A DNA stretch of 64,000 bases from Sphingomonas sp. AP4-R1 (lineage in GTDB: Bacteria > Pseudomonadota > Alphaproteobacteria > Sphingomonadales > Sphingomonadaceae): NCBI RefSeq assembly GCF_013113735.1, contig NZ_CP053346.1, forward strand, positions 2,928,001-2,992,000. The letters run 5' to 3'. Shown here in pieces: positions 17,604 through 24,978 of the stretch. The notes below the pieces were generated by a model. It made no database searches. It was not told the DNA's origin and saw only the letters and a program-made list of their open reading frames with translations. Position numbers and translations under genes: made by a program. The first letter of the stretch is position 1; each line of letters starts with the position of its first letter.

Positions 17604-18449
17604 TCAGCCCGCGCGCTCGGCCAGCATCGAGGCGATCATCGGCTGGAGCTTGGGCGTGTAGGCCGCCAGCACGGTGGGCGGGCAGCCGCCGAAGAGGGTG
17701 GTGAGGCGGCCTTCCTCCCAGCTGTGGAGCGCGAAGCCGGGATCGCCATCCTCGATCAGCGCGCGATCGTCGGGCGTGGCGGGATCGAGGGGGGTGAGCA
17801 CCAAGCCCACTTCGGGCGCGGTGGAGGGGCAGATGGTGAGCGGCACGTTCGCCCAGCTCGTGTGGCTGGAGCGGTGGACGTGGCCGGAGACGAGGCCCAT
17901 CACCTGGGCGTGGCCTGCGAGGGCGCCGTGCAGGCGGGCGATCCACGGCTCGTTGGGGGCCGGATCCATCCAGGGGATGCCCACGCCTTGCGGCGGATGG
18001 TGGAGGAAGATCAAAGTCGGCGTGTCCGGCGCTTCGGACAGGCGGGCGGCGAGCCAGCCGGCGCGGACCTCGCAGAAGGCGCCGCCATGACGGCCTTCCT
18101 CCAGCGTATCGAGCAGGATCAGGCGCAGGCCGGGGCCCTCGATCACCTGCTGGATAAAGCCCTCGCTCACCGGCGTATTCGGGAAGATGCGTGCCATCGG
18201 CCCGCGCAGATCGTGATTGCCGGTCATCAGATGGACCGGCATCGGGCAGCGGGCGAGGGCCGCGGCGAGGACGGCATAGCTTTCCTCGTCGCCATATTCG
18301 GTAAGATCGCCCGAGGCGATCAGCAGATCGGGCAGGGGGTTCAACGCGAGGATACGATCAAGGACGCGATGAAGGCGCTGCAGATTGGGCTCGTCCGGGT
18401 TTGATCGCTCAAAACCGATGTGCAAATCGGAAATCTGCGCGATCAGCAT
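17604..18449 (-). CDS. cpdA: CpdA-like 3',5'-cyclic-nucleotide phosphodiesterase (metallophosphoesterase)
   Basis: The 281-residue calcineurin-type phosphoesterase carries the full metal-binding set: SDLHIG, SGDLTEYGD, MTGNHDLRG, LHHPPQG and GHVHRS. This matches class III cAMP phosphodiesterases (CpdA). The ATG at 18449 follows a GGGGGG tract; in-frame GTG starts at 18470 and 18482 are possible, and the latter overlaps the upstream cytochrome stop. The gene lies 25 bases after the FHA-decaheme cytochrome gene on the same strand. That whole unit begins with a protein carrying two cNMP-binding domains. Co-transcription would make this the local cAMP off-switch; that functional link is inference. 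Confidence 0.85.
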   Translation of the reverse strand: MLIAQISDLHIGFERSNPDEPNLQRLHRVLDRILALNPLPDLLIASGDLTEYGDEESYAVLAAALARCPMPVHLMTGNHDLRGPMARIFPNTPVSEGFIQQVIEGPGLRLILLDTLEEGRHGGAFCEVRAGWLAARLSEAPDTPTLIFLHHPPQGVGIPWMDPAPNEPWIARLHGALAGHAQVMGLVSGHVHRSSHTSWANVPLTICPSTAPEVGLVLTPLDPATPDDRALIEDGDPGFALHSWEEGRLTTLFGGCPPTVLAAYTPKLQPMIASMLAERAG

Positions 18450-18474
18450 CGGTGTTGGCCCCCCATTCACCTTC

Positions 18475-20313
18475 CTACTCACTATTCCTTACGGAAGTGG
18501 TGGCCGAAGGTTGCGTGAACTTTCTTTTCTCTTCTCGATTGGCTGCCGTCGCCGCGCGCCGATCATCCTTATGATAGACGTGACACATCGCGCAGCCCGA
18601 CGCCACCTGCGCTTTCTTTGCGATTCCGCCACCATTTTCGCCGACATGGCAGGTGCGGCAATTGGCGATGCCGGGGATCAGCACGTCGCGCGCATCCTTC
18701 GATTTCGGCGCCGCATGGCAGGAGGCGCAATCCTCGGTCGTGTGCGCGCGATGATCGAACCAGCCGTTCACGAAGTAGTGATCGGGCAGGGTGACGGCGG
18801 CGATCTTGTAATCCAGTGCGCCGGGACGCGACGGGCCGGTGATGCGGTGGCAATCGGCGCAGGTGCCATCCGGCGCGAACATCGCGCGGATCGCCTGGCC
18901 CGCGGTGCCGCTGATGCCCTGCAGGCTCGCGACCTGAGCGGCGGCGAAATCGCCGGGGCGCTTGCGCATATAGCCGGCGAGAGGCTGGACCGGCGTACCG
19001 CCGCCCGCGCCATAGAAATCGCGGACCTGCGCGATCGCCTGATCCACCTCGCCATGGCGCAAGGTGCGGATCTGGCCGTCACGTCGGCCGAAGGCGAGGC
19101 TGTGGCAGGACTGGCAATCCTTCTCCATCGTCACCGGCAGGAAGCCCGCGCCGTTGCGATTGGGCGTGTGGCAGCCCGCGCAATCGAGCCCGCCGCTCTT
19201 CACCTGACCCAAAGCCTGCGCCATGCGCGCGACGCCGTTGGTAGCGGACAGATGCAGATCGTGCGGGAAGATCAGGCCGGTCTCCTGTTTCGGATGCGCA
19301 TCCAGCGACGTGCGCTGGAAGATCGGCTGGTCGCCGGGCTTGATCAGGATGGCGGGCTGGAATTCGGGATGGCCGGAGCCGAAATCCTTCGTGTCGCCCA
19401 GCTTCGTCTCGGGCAGCTTTTCCTTCAGATCGGCGTGGCAATCCGCGCAGAATTTCTGGTTGGGCACGGCGATCCGGGTGTCGTTGCCCTTATGCTCGGT
19501 GTGGCAATCCACGCAGCGCCCGGCGGGGCGATTGAAGGCGTGGGCGACGGCGAGGCTGAGCTTGCCGCCGATCGTGTCCGGCGCCAGCGCGACGCGCAGC
19601 TTTTCCGGATCGGCATGATCGTGGACGGTGGTGTGGCAGGTCTTGCAACTCTCGTCCCGCACCGAGACGAAGGCCTTGGCGTGGCAGGCGGTGCAATCGT
19701 TGGTGAGCCCGGCGTGGGCCGACGAGAGCGGCCCGGCCGACCAGCTGCGATCGCCATGGAAGCCGGCCGTGCCCGCCGCCATCTGCTCGGCCGTGAGCGT
19801 CTTGTGGCCGGCATTCACATAAGAGGCGATCGGCCAGGCGAGGAACAGCAGCAGGACGAGCAGCGCGCCGCCCCACGCCATCAGGCGGCGCGAGGGGGCG
19901 ACGCCCGCGAGCGTGAACAATTGCCGTTCGTCGCGCTCCTCATCGGCGGCGGAGGCGGCGACCGCGCCGAAGCGCTCGACGGTGACGCCGATCGCCTGCT
20001 CGGCCTCGTCCCATGCGATTTCGAGGCGGAAGCCCGCGATGCGGACCTCGGCGCCGGCGCGCGCATCGACCTCGGCCTCCTGCGTCGAGCGGCCGTCGAC
20101 CGTGAAGGGCACGCCCTTCAGCGAGCGGACGATCAGGCGGTGCGGCCCGGTCTGGACGAGCGTGGCATGCTCGAGCGTGACCTCGAGATCGGTGAGGACG
20201 ATATCGGAGCCGGGATCGCGGCCGATCGAGACGCGCTCGCCTTCCACGCGGCGGCTGCGGCGGATCTCGCGGCCTGTGGCGGATGCCGAGACGGCATGGA
20301 TCAGAAACGCCAT
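18475..20313 (-). CDS. FHA domain - transmembrane - decaheme cytochrome c fusion
   Basis: The protein has 612 residues. Residues 1-105 form a forkhead-associated fold: SIGRDPGSDIVLTDLEVTLEH keeps the GR and the His of the phosphothreonine-binding consensus, but the usual SR is TL. A charged linker and one hydrophobic helix (about 144-165) follow. The long exported part then has ten CxxCH heme sites: CTACH, CKTCH, CVDCH, CADCH, CAGCH, CQSCH, CADCH, CASCH, CRTCH and CAMCH. The topology implied is a cytoplasmic FHA tail and a periplasmic multiheme wire. It starts 7 bases after the b-type cytochrome gene and shares an operon with the CNB-oxidoreductase and cpdA genes. It resembles cytochrome c3/NrfH-like multihemes only in heme motifs. 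Confidence 0.85.
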   Translation of the reverse strand: MAFLIHAVSASATGREIRRSRRVEGERVSIGRDPGSDIVLTDLEVTLEHATLVQTGPHRLIVRSLKGVPFTVDGRSTQEAEVDARAGAEVRIAGFRLEIAWDEAEQAIGVTVERFGAVAASAADEERDERQLFTLAGVAPSRRLMAWGGALLVLLLFLAWPIASYVNAGHKTLTAEQMAAGTAGFHGDRSWSAGPLSSAHAGLTNDCTACHAKAFVSVRDESCKTCHTTVHDHADPEKLRVALAPDTIGGKLSLAVAHAFNRPAGRCVDCHTEHKGNDTRIAVPNQKFCADCHADLKEKLPETKLGDTKDFGSGHPEFQPAILIKPGDQPIFQRTSLDAHPKQETGLIFPHDLHLSATNGVARMAQALGQVKSGGLDCAGCHTPNRNGAGFLPVTMEKDCQSCHSLAFGRRDGQIRTLRHGEVDQAIAQVRDFYGAGGGTPVQPLAGYMRKRPGDFAAAQVASLQGISGTAGQAIRAMFAPDGTCADCHRITGPSRPGALDYKIAAVTLPDHYFVNGWFDHRAHTTEDCASCHAAPKSKDARDVLIPGIANCRTCHVGENGGGIAKKAQVASGCAMCHVYHKDDRRAATAANREEKRKFTQPSATTSVRNSE

Positions 20314-20320
20314 CCCGCCC

Positions 20321-21193
20321 TCACCAGTAGAAGAAGACAGACACGACATGCGCGATCAGAGCGGCGATCAACGCGATCGTCGTCGGCACATGCACGTAGA
20401 GCCAGATTTCGAGGATCGCGCGCAGCCGCAGGTGACGGCGCAATTGCGCGACGAGGCTGTGCTTCTGCCCCAGCAGCGCCTTCAGCCGCTCCATCGCGTC
20501 GGGCGGGATTTCGCCCTTCATCTCGCGCAGGCCATGCTCGGCCTCGGTCGTGGCATTCTCCAGCGCGCCCGAGCGCAGGCGCGCGCGCAGCCCGCCACCG
20601 AACGCATCCTCGTCCAGCGAGGCCTGGATCAGCGCGGCGGCGCGCGGACCCAGCGGCTGGGCGGCGGAATGAAGCTGGCGATCGAGCGAGCGCAGGCCTT
20701 CCAGCATCTGCGTCTCGGTCAGCTCACCGCGATTTTCGGAAAGCTTGGAGGGCAAAGCCGCATAGACGCCGATCCCGAACAGGCCGGAGGCGATGACGAG
20801 CATCATCAGCGCATAAGCGAGCGTGTGGACGTTCCAGCCGAAATGGAAGCCGGTGTGGAGCGTGCCGATCACGATCAGCGACAGGCCCAGCCACACATGT
20901 GCGGAGGTCCACGCCTTCAGCGACCAGACGCCCGGCGACATGCGCCGCTTGCGGATGCCGAGCGCCGTCAGCCACAGGATCAGCGCGAAGCCGATCGTGC
21001 CGAGCGTATAGCCATAGACGGTGTCGCCCTCGGGCCGGGGCACCGGATTGTCGAACGCGTAGATCAGGATCAGGACGAGGCAGAGCGCGCTTGCGATCTT
21101 CGCCCAGCGCCAGTTGCGATGGCGCAGGAAGCTTTCGTGCAGGAGCGCGGCCGAGCGGCGGACCTGCTTGCGGGGGGAGGAGCGGCTGGCCAT
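20321..21193 (-). CDS. b-type cytochrome-like membrane protein, partner of decaheme cytochrome
   Basis: A 290-residue integral membrane protein with about five hydrophobic helices: near residues 30-46, 62-82, 95-120, 125-150 and 265-290. His residues sit at helix positions suited to heme b ligation (SAHVWLGLSLIVIGTLHTGFH, WNVHTLAY, LYVHVP, LIAHVV). A soluble, charged cytoplasmic loop of about 100 residues separates helices four and five. This is the expected membrane link between the Fe-S/flavin subunit encoded upstream and the FHA-decaheme subunit encoded 7 bases downstream. I cannot assign a named family. Heme binding is predicted, not proven. Confidence 0.72.
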   Translation of the reverse strand: MASRSSPRKQVRRSAALLHESFLRHRNWRWAKIASALCLVLILIYAFDNPVPRPEGDTVYGYTLGTIGFALILWLTALGIRKRRMSPGVWSLKAWTSAHVWLGLSLIVIGTLHTGFHFGWNVHTLAYALMMLVIASGLFGIGVYAALPSKLSENRGELTETQMLEGLRSLDRQLHSAAQPLGPRAAALIQASLDEDAFGGGLRARLRSGALENATTEAEHGLREMKGEIPPDAMERLKALLGQKHSLVAQLRRHLRLRAILEIWLYVHVPTTIALIAALIAHVVSVFFYW

Positions 21194-21214
21194 CAGCGCG
21201 CGCTCTCTTCAACA

Positions 21215-21315
21215 CCGTTTGGTTCGAGCAGCATCGAGCTTGCCGAGATGCGACCGTCGAGAACCTTCTCGACTGCGGTTCTCGACAGGCTCAAACCTTC
21301 GCTCGAAGCAAACGG
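21215..21315. repeat. Dispersed palindromic element, type B
   Basis: The element opens CCGTTTGGTTCGAGCAGCAT, contains CTCGACTGCGGTTCTCGACAG and closes AAGCAAACGG. It is the same subtype as the copy embedded in the E2 gene near 57348 and fills the gap between the CNB-oxidoreductase gene and the b-type cytochrome gene. Confidence 0.8.
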
Positions 21316-21341
21316 CTGGGGAGGGTGGGCGGGGAGCATGC

Positions 21342-23840
21342 TCACCGCTCCGCCCCCAGGCGCGAGATGGTCAGGAATTCCTCCGGCGCGACGCGGATCG
21401 CGGCGCCGGTGGGGCAGGCGCGGACGCAGGCGGGGCCGCCGTCGATGCCCGAGCACATGTCGCACTTGATCGCCTTCTTGGGCTTCTCGACGCCCGCCGG
21501 CATATTGTCGTGCACCCATTTGTGGGACGGTTCGCCGGGGCCGGGGCCGCGCCCGAACAACAGCCAGGAGAGCAGGCCCGGCTTCTTCGGCGGCACCTTG
21601 TCCAGCCGGATCACGCCATACGGGCAGTTACGCTGGCAATTGCCGCAGCCGATGCAGCTGTCGTCGACGAACACCTCGCCGTCCGGCCCGCGATGGATCG
21701 CGTTGGGCGGGCAATCGGCCATGCAGTGCGGATGCTCGCAATGGCGGCAGGAGGTGGGGACGTGGAGGTGCGCATAGGTGCGCCCCGCCTCGCGATCGAG
21801 CCGCGACAGGCCTTCGTGGCTGTCCGCGCAGGCCTTCTCGCAATTGTCGCAGCCGACGCAGAGCTTCTCGTCGATCAGCAGAACGTCGGTCGCCTCGCCG
21901 ATGCCGTTCTCGATCAGGAAGCCCGCAACCGAGGAATAAAGATCGACGGCGCCGCCGAAATCCTCCTTGCGCTCCTCGATGAAGCTGTTGACCTGCCGGC
22001 GCGAGGCCATGTCCTTCTTGGCGCGCTCCAGCAGTTTGGGATGTTTCTGGAGGAGGGCAGCGAAGGCGTCGCCGTCGATCCGCAGCACTTCGGACTTGAT
22101 CGCCGCGCGCACGGTGGCGGTGCGCGTGCCGCCGTCGATCAGCGCCATCTCGCCCACGTAGGAGCCGGCGGGGAGATAGGAGAGGAAGATGGGCTTGGAG
22201 CCGACCTTCTTCTCCACGATCATCGAGCCCGAGCGGATCACGTAGATGTCACGGCCCTCGTCGCCCTCGACGAGGATCGATTCACCGGCCTTGATCTGCT
22301 TGATCTCCGAATGCTCCATCACATCCGCCAGATCGGCGGGGGTGAGGCCGGAGCCGAACATCTGGAGAAGCTGGCGCTCGGTGGAGATGCGCGTGATCGC
22401 GCGTTTCACGGCGGGTACCTGGCTCATCAGCTTGAGCGTGGCGGAGCGGGGGATTTCCAGGAGGACGCAGGGCTTGGCGGCGCTGACGGTGGAGCCGCGA
22501 CGACGGCCCGAAATCAGGCCGACCTCGCCGAAGATCGAGCCCTTGTCGATCATCACATCCACGCCCGGCGCGACCTCGACCGCGACCGAGCCCGAGGCGA
22601 CCGCGAACAGCGAGGAGCCGGGATCGTTGCGGCGGAAGATCACCTCGCCCGCCGCGAACGCCGCAATCTCGCTGTCCAGCATGAATTCGCGCATCTGCAG
22701 CGGCGAGAGATCGTGCAGGATCTCCACATTCTCGCGCAGATAGTCGAGCCAGCCGGAGACGCTGTTCTCGCGTGCGACGCCCGAGGGAAGGCCGGAGAAT
22801 TTCCGCTCCAGGATCGGCTCGTCGGCGGGCTTCAGGCTCGTGTTGCCGGCGATGAACTCGACGACGTCATAGCCCTGGTTCATGCAATGCTTGATCAGCG
22901 GATAGCCTGCCAGCGCGCCGATCACGTAGATGCCGGGCACGGTCGATTCGAACGTCGGCGACAACTTGGGATAGGAGATGCGATCCTGGCTGGCGAACTG
23001 GACGCCGGTGCCGGGGACGACGCTCTTGCGCCCGTCCTTCTCCTCGAAGCTGGCGCAGCACGCTTCCACGAAGGCGCGGGGCGGGGCGGAGCCGATGCGG
23101 GCGATCGTGCGGTTGCACGGGATCGTCACCGCGCCGTCGCGCGTGTCGAAGCTGATCGTGTCCGGGCCGATCGCGGACGTGCTCGTCTCGCACATCACGG
23201 TGATGCGGCCTTCGGCCTCGGCCGCGCGCAGCAGCTTGACGTTGGCATCCTTGGCGGTCGGGAATTCGGCGCCGAGATTGACGAGGGTGACGGTGTTGCG
23301 CTGCTCGGGATCGGCGGCGAGGCCCAGCGCATTCTCGATGCCCGCGTCGCCGCCGCCGATCACGGTGATATGCTCGTCGATATATTCGGCGGGGTCGTCC
23401 AGCGTGTACTGGACGATCGCGGCATCATCGACGGGGCAGCGCATCCGGTTCGGATTGCCCTGCGTGCCGATGCCGAGGATGATCGTCTCGGCCTTGACGT
23501 CCGGCTTGCCCTTGATCGAGATGGTGAAGTCGCCGATCTGGCCGGTGACGGCGGTGACCTCCGCCTCCATCAGCACGTTGACCTTGTGGCCGGCTGTGCC
23601 CTCGTTCCAGTTACCGAGGATCGCCTCGCGCTTGCCCGCCTCGAACGGCAGGTCCGAGCGCAGCACGAGCTGGCTCGGCGTGGCCATCACGTGCTTGCCC
23701 TTCTGGTATTTGTAGATCGTATCGGAGAGGTGGTCCGTCTTCTCGATCAATATATGATCGAGGCCCAGAGACGCGGCGTGCGCGGCCGCGCTCAGGCCAG
23801 CAGGCCCGGACCCGATAATGGCGACGCGATGCATCGTCAT
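21342..23840 (-). CDS. FAD/NAD(P) oxidoreductase with two cNMP-binding domains and four [4Fe-4S] clusters
   Basis: The protein has 832 residues in four parts. Residues 1-330 are a thioredoxin-reductase/YpdA-like flavoprotein, with FAD motif GSGPAG at 10-15 and NAD(P) motif GGGDAG at 162-167. Residues about 390-490 are a first cyclic-nucleotide-binding domain (FGEVGLISGRRRGSTVSA). Residues about 510-610 are a second, with a textbook phosphate-binding cassette (VGEMALIDGGTRTATVRA). Residues 650-832 are a DmsB/HycB-type ferredoxin with four cysteine quartets: CVGCDNCEKAC, CRHCEHPHCMADC, CIGCGNCQRNC and CDMC...CVRAC. It should pass electrons from NAD(P)H through flavin and Fe-S clusters to the membrane cytochrome encoded next, with cNMP as effector. 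The ATG at 23840 follows GGAAGGGGGA. Confidence 0.88.
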   Translation of the reverse strand: MTMHRVAIIGSGPAGLSAAAHAASLGLDHILIEKTDHLSDTIYKYQKGKHVMATPSQLVLRSDLPFEAGKREAILGNWNEGTAGHKVNVLMEAEVTAVTGQIGDFTISIKGKPDVKAETIILGIGTQGNPNRMRCPVDDAAIVQYTLDDPAEYIDEHITVIGGGDAGIENALGLAADPEQRNTVTLVNLGAEFPTAKDANVKLLRAAEAEGRITVMCETSTSAIGPDTISFDTRDGAVTIPCNRTIARIGSAPPRAFVEACCASFEEKDGRKSVVPGTGVQFASQDRISYPKLSPTFESTVPGIYVIGALAGYPLIKHCMNQGYDVVEFIAGNTSLKPADEPILERKFSGLPSGVARENSVSGWLDYLRENVEILHDLSPLQMREFMLDSEIAAFAAGEVIFRRNDPGSSLFAVASGSVAVEVAPGVDVMIDKGSIFGEVGLISGRRRGSTVSAAKPCVLLEIPRSATLKLMSQVPAVKRAITRISTERQLLQMFGSGLTPADLADVMEHSEIKQIKAGESILVEGDEGRDIYVIRSGSMIVEKKVGSKPIFLSYLPAGSYVGEMALIDGGTRTATVRAAIKSEVLRIDGDAFAALLQKHPKLLERAKKDMASRRQVNSFIEERKEDFGGAVDLYSSVAGFLIENGIGEATDVLLIDEKLCVGCDNCEKACADSHEGLSRLDREAGRTYAHLHVPTSCRHCEHPHCMADCPPNAIHRGPDGEVFVDDSCIGCGNCQRNCPYGVIRLDKVPPKKPGLLSWLLFGRGPGPGEPSHKWVHDNMPAGVEKPKKAIKCDMCSGIDGGPACVRACPTGAAIRVAPEEFLTISRLGAER

Positions 23841-24042
23841 GGAGCATTCCCCCTTCCCCAACGCCTGCTCTAGCATCCCTGACGCAAGAGGCTAGACCTT
23901 GATCGTTACGGGCTGCAAATCAGCCGGCAACGTGAAACACGGTTTCGACACGGTACGGAGCCTGGTTCGCATCCGTTGCAGGCGTGCGGCGCGCGCCGAT
24001 ATCTCGGACGATCGAGGTCCGGGCGCGCAAGTATTTGGGGGA

Positions 24043-24978
24043 GTGAGGAATTTGGCGAGCCAGGGTGGGATCGGCGCCAGCCGGATCGGGATTTACGCTC
24101 TGGTTCTGGCGGGGGTGGCGGCGGTCGTCGCGCTCGGCCTGCGCTATCGTGAAAGCCGCGGGCAGGGGGCTGCGCCCAGCGCCGCCACGGCTCCGAAGGC
24201 GCCGCAGGGCGACGTCAATCAGATGGTGCAGGCGCTGGAAGCGCGGCTGAAGGCGAATCCGAAGGATGCCGAAGGCTGGCGGATGCTGGGCTGGTCCTAC
24301 TTCAACATGAACCGCTTCGACGATGCGGCCAGGGCCTATGCGCGCGGGGCCGAGCAGGCGCCGAACGATTCGGGGCTGTGGTCGGCGCTGGGCGAAACCC
24401 TGGTCTATGCCCACAAGAAGGGCGTGGACGAGGATGCGGCCCACGCCTTCGGCCGCGCGCTGCAAATCGATCCCAAGGATGCGCGCGCGCGCTACTTCAT
24501 GGCCGTCCGCAAGGATCTGGCGGGCGATCACAAGGGCGCGATCGACGACTGGATCGCGGTGCTGCGCGATGCGCCGGCCGACGCGCCGTATGCCGACTCG
24601 ATCCGCACGCTGGTGACGCAGGTGGCCAAGCGCGAGAAGATCGACGTTGCGGGCCGCATGCCGACCGCGCCGGCGCCGCGCACCGTGGCGAGCGACGGCA
24701 TACCGGGGCCGACGCCCGGCCAGATGCAGGATGCGGCGCGGATGAGCCCGTCCGAACAGGATGCGATGGCGCGCGGCATGGTCGATCGGCTGGCCTCGCG
24801 CCTTTCGCAGCAGCCGCGCGACGAGGAGGGCTGGATCCGTCTGATGCGCGCGCGGCTGGTGCTGGGTGACAAGGTGGCGGCGAAAGAGGCGCATGCCAAG
24901 GCGCGCGGCGTGTTCTCGGACGACAAGGGCGCGCTCGGCCGGATCGATGCGGCCGCCAAAGAGTTGGGAGTCGAATGA
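24043..24978 (+). CDS. TPR protein of the CcmI/CycH type (cytochrome c maturation-like)
   Basis: A 311-residue protein with one N-terminal membrane helix (IGIYALVLAGVAAVVALGL) followed by TPR repeats at about 60-180 (GWRMLGWSYFNMNRFDDAA and others) and a C-terminal TPR-like tail. The anchor-plus-TPR layout resembles CcmI/CycH, which hands apocytochrome c to heme ligation, but no other ccm gene is visible. The GTG at 24043 is chosen for its GGGGG ribosome-binding site and the immediate membrane helix; the frame is open back to 23899. It is divergent from the multiheme-cytochrome operon, which fits a maturation role. The stop overlaps the phhA start. Confidence 0.7.
   Translation: MRNLASQGGIGASRIGIYALVLAGVAAVVALGLRYRESRGQGAAPSAATAPKAPQGDVNQMVQALEARLKANPKDAEGWRMLGWSYFNMNRFDDAARAYARGAEQAPNDSGLWSALGETLVYAHKKGVDEDAAHAFGRALQIDPKDARARYFMAVRKDLAGDHKGAIDDWIAVLRDAPADAPYADSIRTLVTQVAKREKIDVAGRMPTAPAPRTVASDGIPGPTPGQMQDAARMSPSEQDAMARGMVDRLASRLSQQPRDEEGWIRLMRARLVLGDKVAAKEAHAKARGVFSDDKGALGRIDAAAKELGVE

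Follow-up and report, generated by a model that had tools for sequence, protein, structure and literature searches.

The window examined here is a 64,000-nucleotide stretch of the Sphingomonas sp. AP4-R1 genome (NZ_CP053346.1, positions 2,928,001-2,992,000), to which coordinates refer unless a locus or contig is named. It carries four consecutive minus strand genes, hereafter A, B, C and D. Gene A (21342..23840, 832 aa) fuses an FAD/NAD(P)H oxidoreductase with two cyclic-nucleotide-binding (CNB) domains and a predicted four-[4Fe-4S] ferredoxin; B (20321..21193, 290 aa) encodes a membrane protein with five modelled helices and a predicted di-heme b; C (18475..20313, 612 aa) combines an FHA domain, one hydrophobic segment and a ten-heme c-type domain; and D (17604..18449, 281 aa) encodes a class III metallophosphodiesterase resembling SpdA, CpdA, GpdQ and Rv0805. 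A sequence-only reading had taken these genes for a possible cAMP-gated transmembrane electron-transfer unit, and the gene order, coordinates and intergenic gaps it gave (148, 7 and 25 bp for A-B, B-C and C-D) are correct. Here we explore the conservation and genomic company of these genes and consider it fairly probable that A-B-C forms the inner-membrane module of an electron conduit that spans the envelope, is encoded at split loci, takes its electrons from NAD(P)H and is controlled by cyclic nucleotide.

Conservation of the gene neighbourhood

A scan of genome contigs returned at least 586 confirmed relatives of A, of which the closest 80 loci were kept (hereafter close loci). These were assigned to order from their record names; 75/80 records are sphingomonad-named and L031, L064, L071, L072 and L077 stand under broader names. 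In 64 of these best 80 of at least 586 loci A-B-C-D occur in this order on one strand, which is more than chance, and the neighbourhood is thus conserved. Among the 16 others, 13 stretches end too early and three (L003, L017 and L071) have room for D and lack it; at least 1.1 kb beyond C is present in 65 close loci, these three included. Median gaps, calculated from the starts of hidden Markov model (HMM) domains, are 32 bp for A-B (76 loci) and 10 bp for B-C (74 loci), hence tight linkage is the rule.

A distant set comprises 40 loci from 39 genomes of other orders or classes. Full A is found in 27 of these and a short-branch form, A', in 13; according to the Pfam lists of 120 relatives, A' consists of CNB and ferredoxin parts and has no flavin domain. 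A-B-C are in order in 22 of the 27 distant full-A loci, and the short-branch loci show a B homologue by HMM in 10/13 and a gene with 7-11 heme motifs in 12/13. At L165:6844-10203 A and B form a single 1120-aa open frame with C downstream, a natural fusion that supports direct contact of A and B.

Residues and domains of the four proteins

Pfam matches in A are the FAD/NAD(P) fold PF13738 (88.9 bits), two stretches of PF00027 (cNMP_binding; 122 bits, cut-off 27.5) and Fer4 domains including PF13247 (43.3 bits, cut-off 26.2). YpdA, AegA and other NCBIfam families were rejected as identity of A, since all fell far below cut-off among the 25 of 134 matches listed. Residue conservation was scored over 107 relatives, the 80 close and 27 distant ones. 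FAD glycines G10, G12 and G15 and NAD(P) residues G162, G164 and D165 are invariant; 16 relatives have Ala in place of G167, the third NAD(P) glycine. All 16 Cys of the four quartets in the ferredoxin domain (21387..21881) are invariant as well. CNB1 (22419..22658) has the phosphate-binding cassette FGEVGLISGRRRGSTV with Glu439 and Arg448, and CNB2 (22041..22301) has VGEMALIDGGTRTATV with Glu564 and Arg573. These Glu and Arg residues, which we take to be the cyclic-nucleotide contacts, are found in all 107 relatives in both domains. The residue following the cassette Arg, considered as indicator of cAMP versus cGMP preference, is variable and hence not decisive.

B matches no Pfam family above cut-off; Ferric_reduct (PF01794) reaches 16.6 bits at a cut-off of 28. 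Its motifs are W95-X3-H99-X13-H113, S136-G-X-X-G140 and W264-X3-H268-X13-H282. The four His are kept in 76/76 close rows, in the gap-free 21-22 of 23 distant rows and in 10/10 short-branch rows, both Gly of SGXXG as well as W264 in all gap-free rows, W95 in 75/76 close rows and S136 in 74/76 close and 9/10 short-branch rows. By the positive-inside rule, charge distribution places the N-terminus and a 100-aa loop inside and the C-terminus outside; with this predicted topology the hemes of H99/H268 and H113/H282 would stack across the membrane.

C has multiheme c matches and an FHA match barely above cut-off (21.1 versus 20.7 bits), with ten CXXCH motifs and a single hydrophobic segment (aa 144-162) that presumably sets the ten hemes on the periplasmic side. 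Each heme motif occurs in 69-72 of 74 close rows, the remainder being gaps; among the 23 distant rows the figure is 15-23, lowest for the last hemes. Of what we take to be the residues of the FHA phosphothreonine site, Gly-Arg is conserved in 97/97 rows, Ser is variable and His is found in 74/74 close and 12/23 distant rows. The FHA domain was not retained as a canonical phosphothreonine reader, since the Ser is not conserved.

D matches Metallophos (54.3 bits), and its metallophosphoesterase motif residues are conserved in 64/64 rows. The closest solved structures are phosphohydrolase 2zo9, which we take to be GpdQ, and Rv0805. The two closest curated NCBIfam families are SpdA (NF050112, 135.8 bits, cut-off 400) and CpdA (PRK11148, 87.5 bits, cut-off 225), and D scores nearer SpdA while remaining below both cut-offs. 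None of the 40 distant loci (12-19 kb each) gave a D homologue at an E-value of at most 0.1 in open reading frames (ORFs) of at least 150 aa, so that D is conserved as a partner within the close set alone and was rejected as part of a general machine. The CpdA-type reset that the sequence-only reading assigned to D is therefore weakly founded. According to the excerpted text of PMC4222275, SpdA acts on 2',3'-cyclic nucleoside monophosphates (cNMPs) and its activity on 3',5'-cAMP is undetectable. By analogy D may shield the CNB domains from 2',3'-cNMPs instead of terminating a cAMP signal. Of the three close loci that lack D, L003 has at its position a 316-aa ORF (L003:13356-14303) with the stretch YHNWAHTA, to our eyes reminiscent of HN-x-x-HA phosphodiesterases; without a Pfam match, this ORF was not accepted as a replacement phosphodiesterase.

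Upstream of A a TPR protein of CcmH/CycH (CcmI) type is encoded divergently on the plus strand (23899..24978; PF23914, 77.1 bits), an arrangement found in 66/80 close loci. By family it would be an apocytochrome chaperone, which may link the operon to cytochrome c maturation. Its listed start is probably too far upstream. The A-B gap of the window (21194..21341, minus strand, 148 bp), usually short in relatives, folds into a long and strong stem-loop (z -4.2), possibly a mobile repeat.

An outer module and cyclases that accompany A

The close loci repeatedly encode a decaheme protein with LVIVD repeats and ten CXXCH motifs (Pfam run on two copies), which reaches about 1400 aa in length. Its gene lies within the stretches of 30/80 close loci, in 29 of these 30 on the strand opposite to A. 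L139, L140 and L145 contain a ten-heme or cut-off decaheme copy downstream of C, together with HbpS-like (Pfam run on L145) and barrel-like proteins. In the own genome of the window the corresponding outer module is at C1:3037049-3046503 and encodes a tetraheme c554-type cytochrome, an HbpS-like protein, a barrel and the LVIVD-decaheme. The decaheme match begins 90.7 kb from A and the barrel is about 89 kb off. The HbpS-like protein is a putative lipoprotein, by a lipobox identified by eye, whereas decaheme and tetraheme have Sec-type starts, likewise by eye. The own barrel has no Pfam match at an E-value of at most 0.01, and that of L145 shows a sub-threshold Alginate_exp match only. A structural model of P0124, 88% identical to the own barrel, has 18 long strands (predicted local distance difference test (pLDDT) 69.7) and is AlgE-like by Foldseek (probability 1.00).

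We then compared the distribution of both modules. In the family sample A is found in 98/248 genomes, and precisely these 98 also have the decaheme; the two are often unlinked. Equality of the sets was determined by list comparison, and distances between A and decaheme were taken for 30 genomes. Each occurs in 36/89 genera (Fisher P 1e-71, with relatedness not removed), and in the genus of the window two of five genomes have both and three neither. E-value cut-offs were 1e-100 (family) and 1e-150 (class) for A, and 1e-60 (family) and 1e-30 (class) for the decaheme. In the class sample of 289 genomes the decaheme is present in 23, all of them within the 28 that have A at an E-value of at most 1e-150. 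Because of the perfect co-occurrence with an often unlinked outer module in all 98 family genomes, the view of the four genes as a self-contained unit does not hold.

Class III cyclases, counted as any PF00211 match, are found in 98/98 family genomes with A and in 20/150 without, an association that favours a cyclic-nucleotide input. All 39 distant genomes with fetched A or A' loci have one too, a count for which there is no matched control. The own genome has a single PF00211 match, which combines a CHASE2 sensor with a class III catalytic domain and has a Lys in its base-recognising motif, presumably a sign of adenylate. Nine relatives, picked for a nearby cyclase, were inspected for its surroundings. 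In L190, L191, L192 and L193 a CHASE2 cyclase and the tetraheme gene or D are no more than about 1 kb apart; L194, L196, L197 and L199 have, at a greater distance, a relative 49-57% identical to the own cyclase, and after it an ORF of about 250 aa that looks secreted; the cyclase of L198 is of GAF/PAS type. In other genomes, such as G765, G600 and G701, cyclases lie only far off. That 44/45 cyclase-decaheme pairs lie within 37 kb was not used as evidence, since these rows were picked for a shared contig and are biased.

As a side observation, a putative cysS-like gene also follows the cyclase in L194, L196, L197 and L199, as do large putative secretion-type ORFs in three of the four, and the set recurs near the operon or the outer module. 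In the own genome the cyclase and the small secreted-looking ORF are located elsewhere.

Proposed electron path, direction and gating

The order of redox carriers fits the transmembrane path that had been proposed from sequence. Electrons of NAD(P)H would enter the FAD of A and pass through its four [4Fe-4S] clusters to two b hemes stacked across B, and from there to C with its ten periplasmic c hemes. C would hand them to the outer module, that is the tetraheme c554-type cytochrome, HbpS-like lipoprotein, AlgE-like barrel and LVIVD-decaheme, which may deliver them to an acceptor outside. The two CNB domains would let a cyclic nucleotide, probably cAMP from the CHASE2 cyclase with its extracytoplasmic sensor, switch A on or off, and in sphingomonads D may trim a cyclic nucleotide locally.

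One alternative concerns the step from CNB domains to gating. CNB-type domains occur in proteins without demonstrated gating, for example family 2B encapsulins, and those of A could similarly be structural or oligomerisation modules, in which case the conduit would not be gated by cyclic nucleotide. The encapsulin 2B profile does match A, although far under cut-off (45.6 versus 400 bits), and in A' only the first CNB retains a canonical cassette, as judged by eye; of 120 A' sequences, 98-100% retain FGELAALGR and the Arg of the cassette in this first domain. Against ungated domains stand the invariant Glu and Arg in both CNBs of A and the cyclases that track A, and we regard them as improbable, the least so of the alternatives considered here.

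An opposite direction of flow has also to be considered. PCC4 are bioinformatically proposed porin-cytochrome clusters for extracellular electron transfer that, according to the main text of He et al. 2017 (PMC5566968), contain a porin, 4-, 5- and 10-heme cytochromes, an Fe-S gene of pfam13247 and an inner-membrane protein; they are modelled as quinone-linked electron uptake, with hosts from iron- or manganese-oxidising settings. By this model electrons from an outside donor, e.g. Fe(II) or Mn(II), would flow inward to the quinone pool and A would be a side branch. Uptake is favoured by the signature that B shares with the inner-membrane protein of PCC4, and by a ten-heme Forkhead-associated protein that the excerpted text of PMC10734462 lists for 27/87 genomes of iron-oxidising Gallionellaceae. 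The flavoprotein fused in A points to NAD(P)H instead, as does a separate FAD/NAD/2Fe-2S reductase gene near A' in L167 (A' at L167:161-1834) and L178.

These short-branch loci are informative in a further respect. L167, L177 and L178 have a pentaheme gene after the decaheme, and L167 and L178 also a barrel-like protein (in L167 a sub-threshold OprB match), so that they match the PCC4 gene content. L150 and L155, which have fused A, share pentahemes (58-65% identity) and barrel-like proteins (47-55%) with the flavin-less A' loci. That one outer module is combined with two NAD(P)H inlets which are not homologous speaks for NAD(P)H as the inner redox partner. BLAST of the own barrel against the barrel-like proteins encoded at L150, L155, L167 and L178 gave no match, and neither did a search of the own genome with the pentaheme of L150, run without positive control. 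If the b hemes span the membrane as predicted, electrons from NAD(P)H should flow outward downhill and with the aid of the membrane potential, which would oppose their inward flow to NAD(P)+. We therefore think uptake unlikely and export the better account of A-B-C.

Equally unlikely is a chain that ends in the periplasm, where A-B-C would power a reductase or detoxification step by MsrQ-like logic and the decaheme would be a periplasmic enzyme: the Sec-type starts of decaheme and tetraheme suit it and a surface location of the decaheme is but presumed, whereas the gene run of the decaheme also encodes an AlgE-like barrel and a putative lipoprotein, as in porin-cytochrome clusters.

Several observations weigh against the NAD(P)H-fed and cyclic-nucleotide-controlled conduit. 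In 4/27 distant full-A loci (L149, L156, L158 and L164) A is without B or C in the fetched stretch, and five of the 28 class genomes with A (G215, G102, G049, G042 and G089) lack the decaheme; G049 and G089 have a tetraheme, a pentaheme and another barrel-like protein. The co-occurrence counts are of related genomes with genome size uncontrolled and are not independent events. The five-helix model of B is weak (pLDDT 70.8), hydropathy alone gives four of the five helices, and a structure search with the weak model found no match in the PDB at an E-value of at most 0.001, so that heme b in B is predicted from its motif. Conserved CNB residues are no proof of cNMP binding. The own cyclase lies 1.26 Mb from the decaheme, and CHASE2-type cyclases of relatives occur in other gene clusters as well. 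Finally, residue 189 of A (23274-23276), which closes the NAD(P) beta-2 strand, is Arg in 103/107 relatives but Leu here, as also in P0001 and P0002, the closest relatives; this Leu is thus lineage-specific and may change NADPH preference.

Separately, A lies between tetraheme and LVIVD-type decaheme genes in L156 and L158.

More tentatively, and rather less probable than the module itself, the complete route may begin with an outside signal: this would be sensed by the CHASE2 adenylate cyclase, cAMP would open the NAD(P)H gate of A, and an aerobic Sphingomonas would release electrons via B, C and the split outer module to an acceptor outside the cell. Widespread outer conduits would then have at least two exchangeable NAD(P)H inlets, A among them, all with a cyclic-nucleotide site. 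Most extracellular electron transfer known so far belongs to anaerobes and iron oxidisers, and most of it is linked to quinones. The present data point to an inlet that is conserved, linked to NAD(P)H and probably controlled by cyclic nucleotide, in 2/5 genomes of the genus and 98/248 of the sphingomonad family. In their light the inner-membrane protein of PCC4, so far unexplained, could be an NAD(P)H-fed exporter, and, if gating is true, second messengers would be connected directly to electron export.

Relation to known systems

MtrCAB/CymA, MtoAB and PioAB share with the present genes the arrangement of inner-membrane entry, periplasmic multiheme and outer-membrane barrel, some with an outside multiheme. 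They are quinol- or reaction-centre-linked and are not known to have NAD(P)H or CNB modules, and the barrel here differs in being AlgE-like with about 18 strands. NOX, ferric reductases and MsrQ use the same two HX13H helices for two b hemes, with NAD(P)H electrons arriving via a flavin; the genes described here differ in four Fe-S clusters between flavin and heme and in a decaheme acceptor, and the sequence match is sub-threshold. D keeps the metallophosphoesterase motif of SpdA and CpdA but falls below the curated cut-offs of both.

The closest likeness is to PCC4, judged by gene content and motif rather than by sequence identity to named PCC4 loci. The PCC4 inner-membrane protein has, by the main text, five transmembrane (TM) helices with SGXXG in TM4 and WX3HX13H in TM3 and TM5 (PMC5566968). 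B, with five modelled helices, carries the SGXXG and both WX3HX13H motifs of this signature, and almost all rows of the three branches agree with it. The PF13247 Fe-S partner, here part of A, is directly upstream of B, as the pfam13247 gene is upstream of the inner-membrane protein gene in PCC4 subgroup II (PMC5566968, main text). A 10-heme (C) and a 4-heme (L181) cytochrome are also present here, with no match to the L150 pentaheme in the search run without positive control, and the barrel is encoded about 89 kb away. The genes described here differ in their fused NAD(P)H flavoprotein and in being in split loci with an LVIVD-decaheme and an HbpS-like protein. None of the terms 'cyclic', 'cNMP', 'cAMP', 'Crp', 'FAD', 'forkhead', 'sphingo' or CNB occurs in the PCC4 main text (PMC5566968).

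The sequence-only reading knew of no experimental description of such a unit. A literature search found, within the partial texts it returned, no published unit of CNB domains, flavoprotein and multiheme cytochrome; the parts are not entirely new, since B has the PCC4 signature and a ten-heme FHA protein has been listed in Gallionellaceae. That protein, a 'Forkhead-associated protein' with 10 heme motifs (cluster 403), is placed under 'Other' with no role in the excerpted text of PMC10734462 and, likened by its description, is probably similar to C. A-B-C probably adds an NAD(P)H flavoprotein and CNB domains to a PCC4-like kind of conduit, itself described by bioinformatics.

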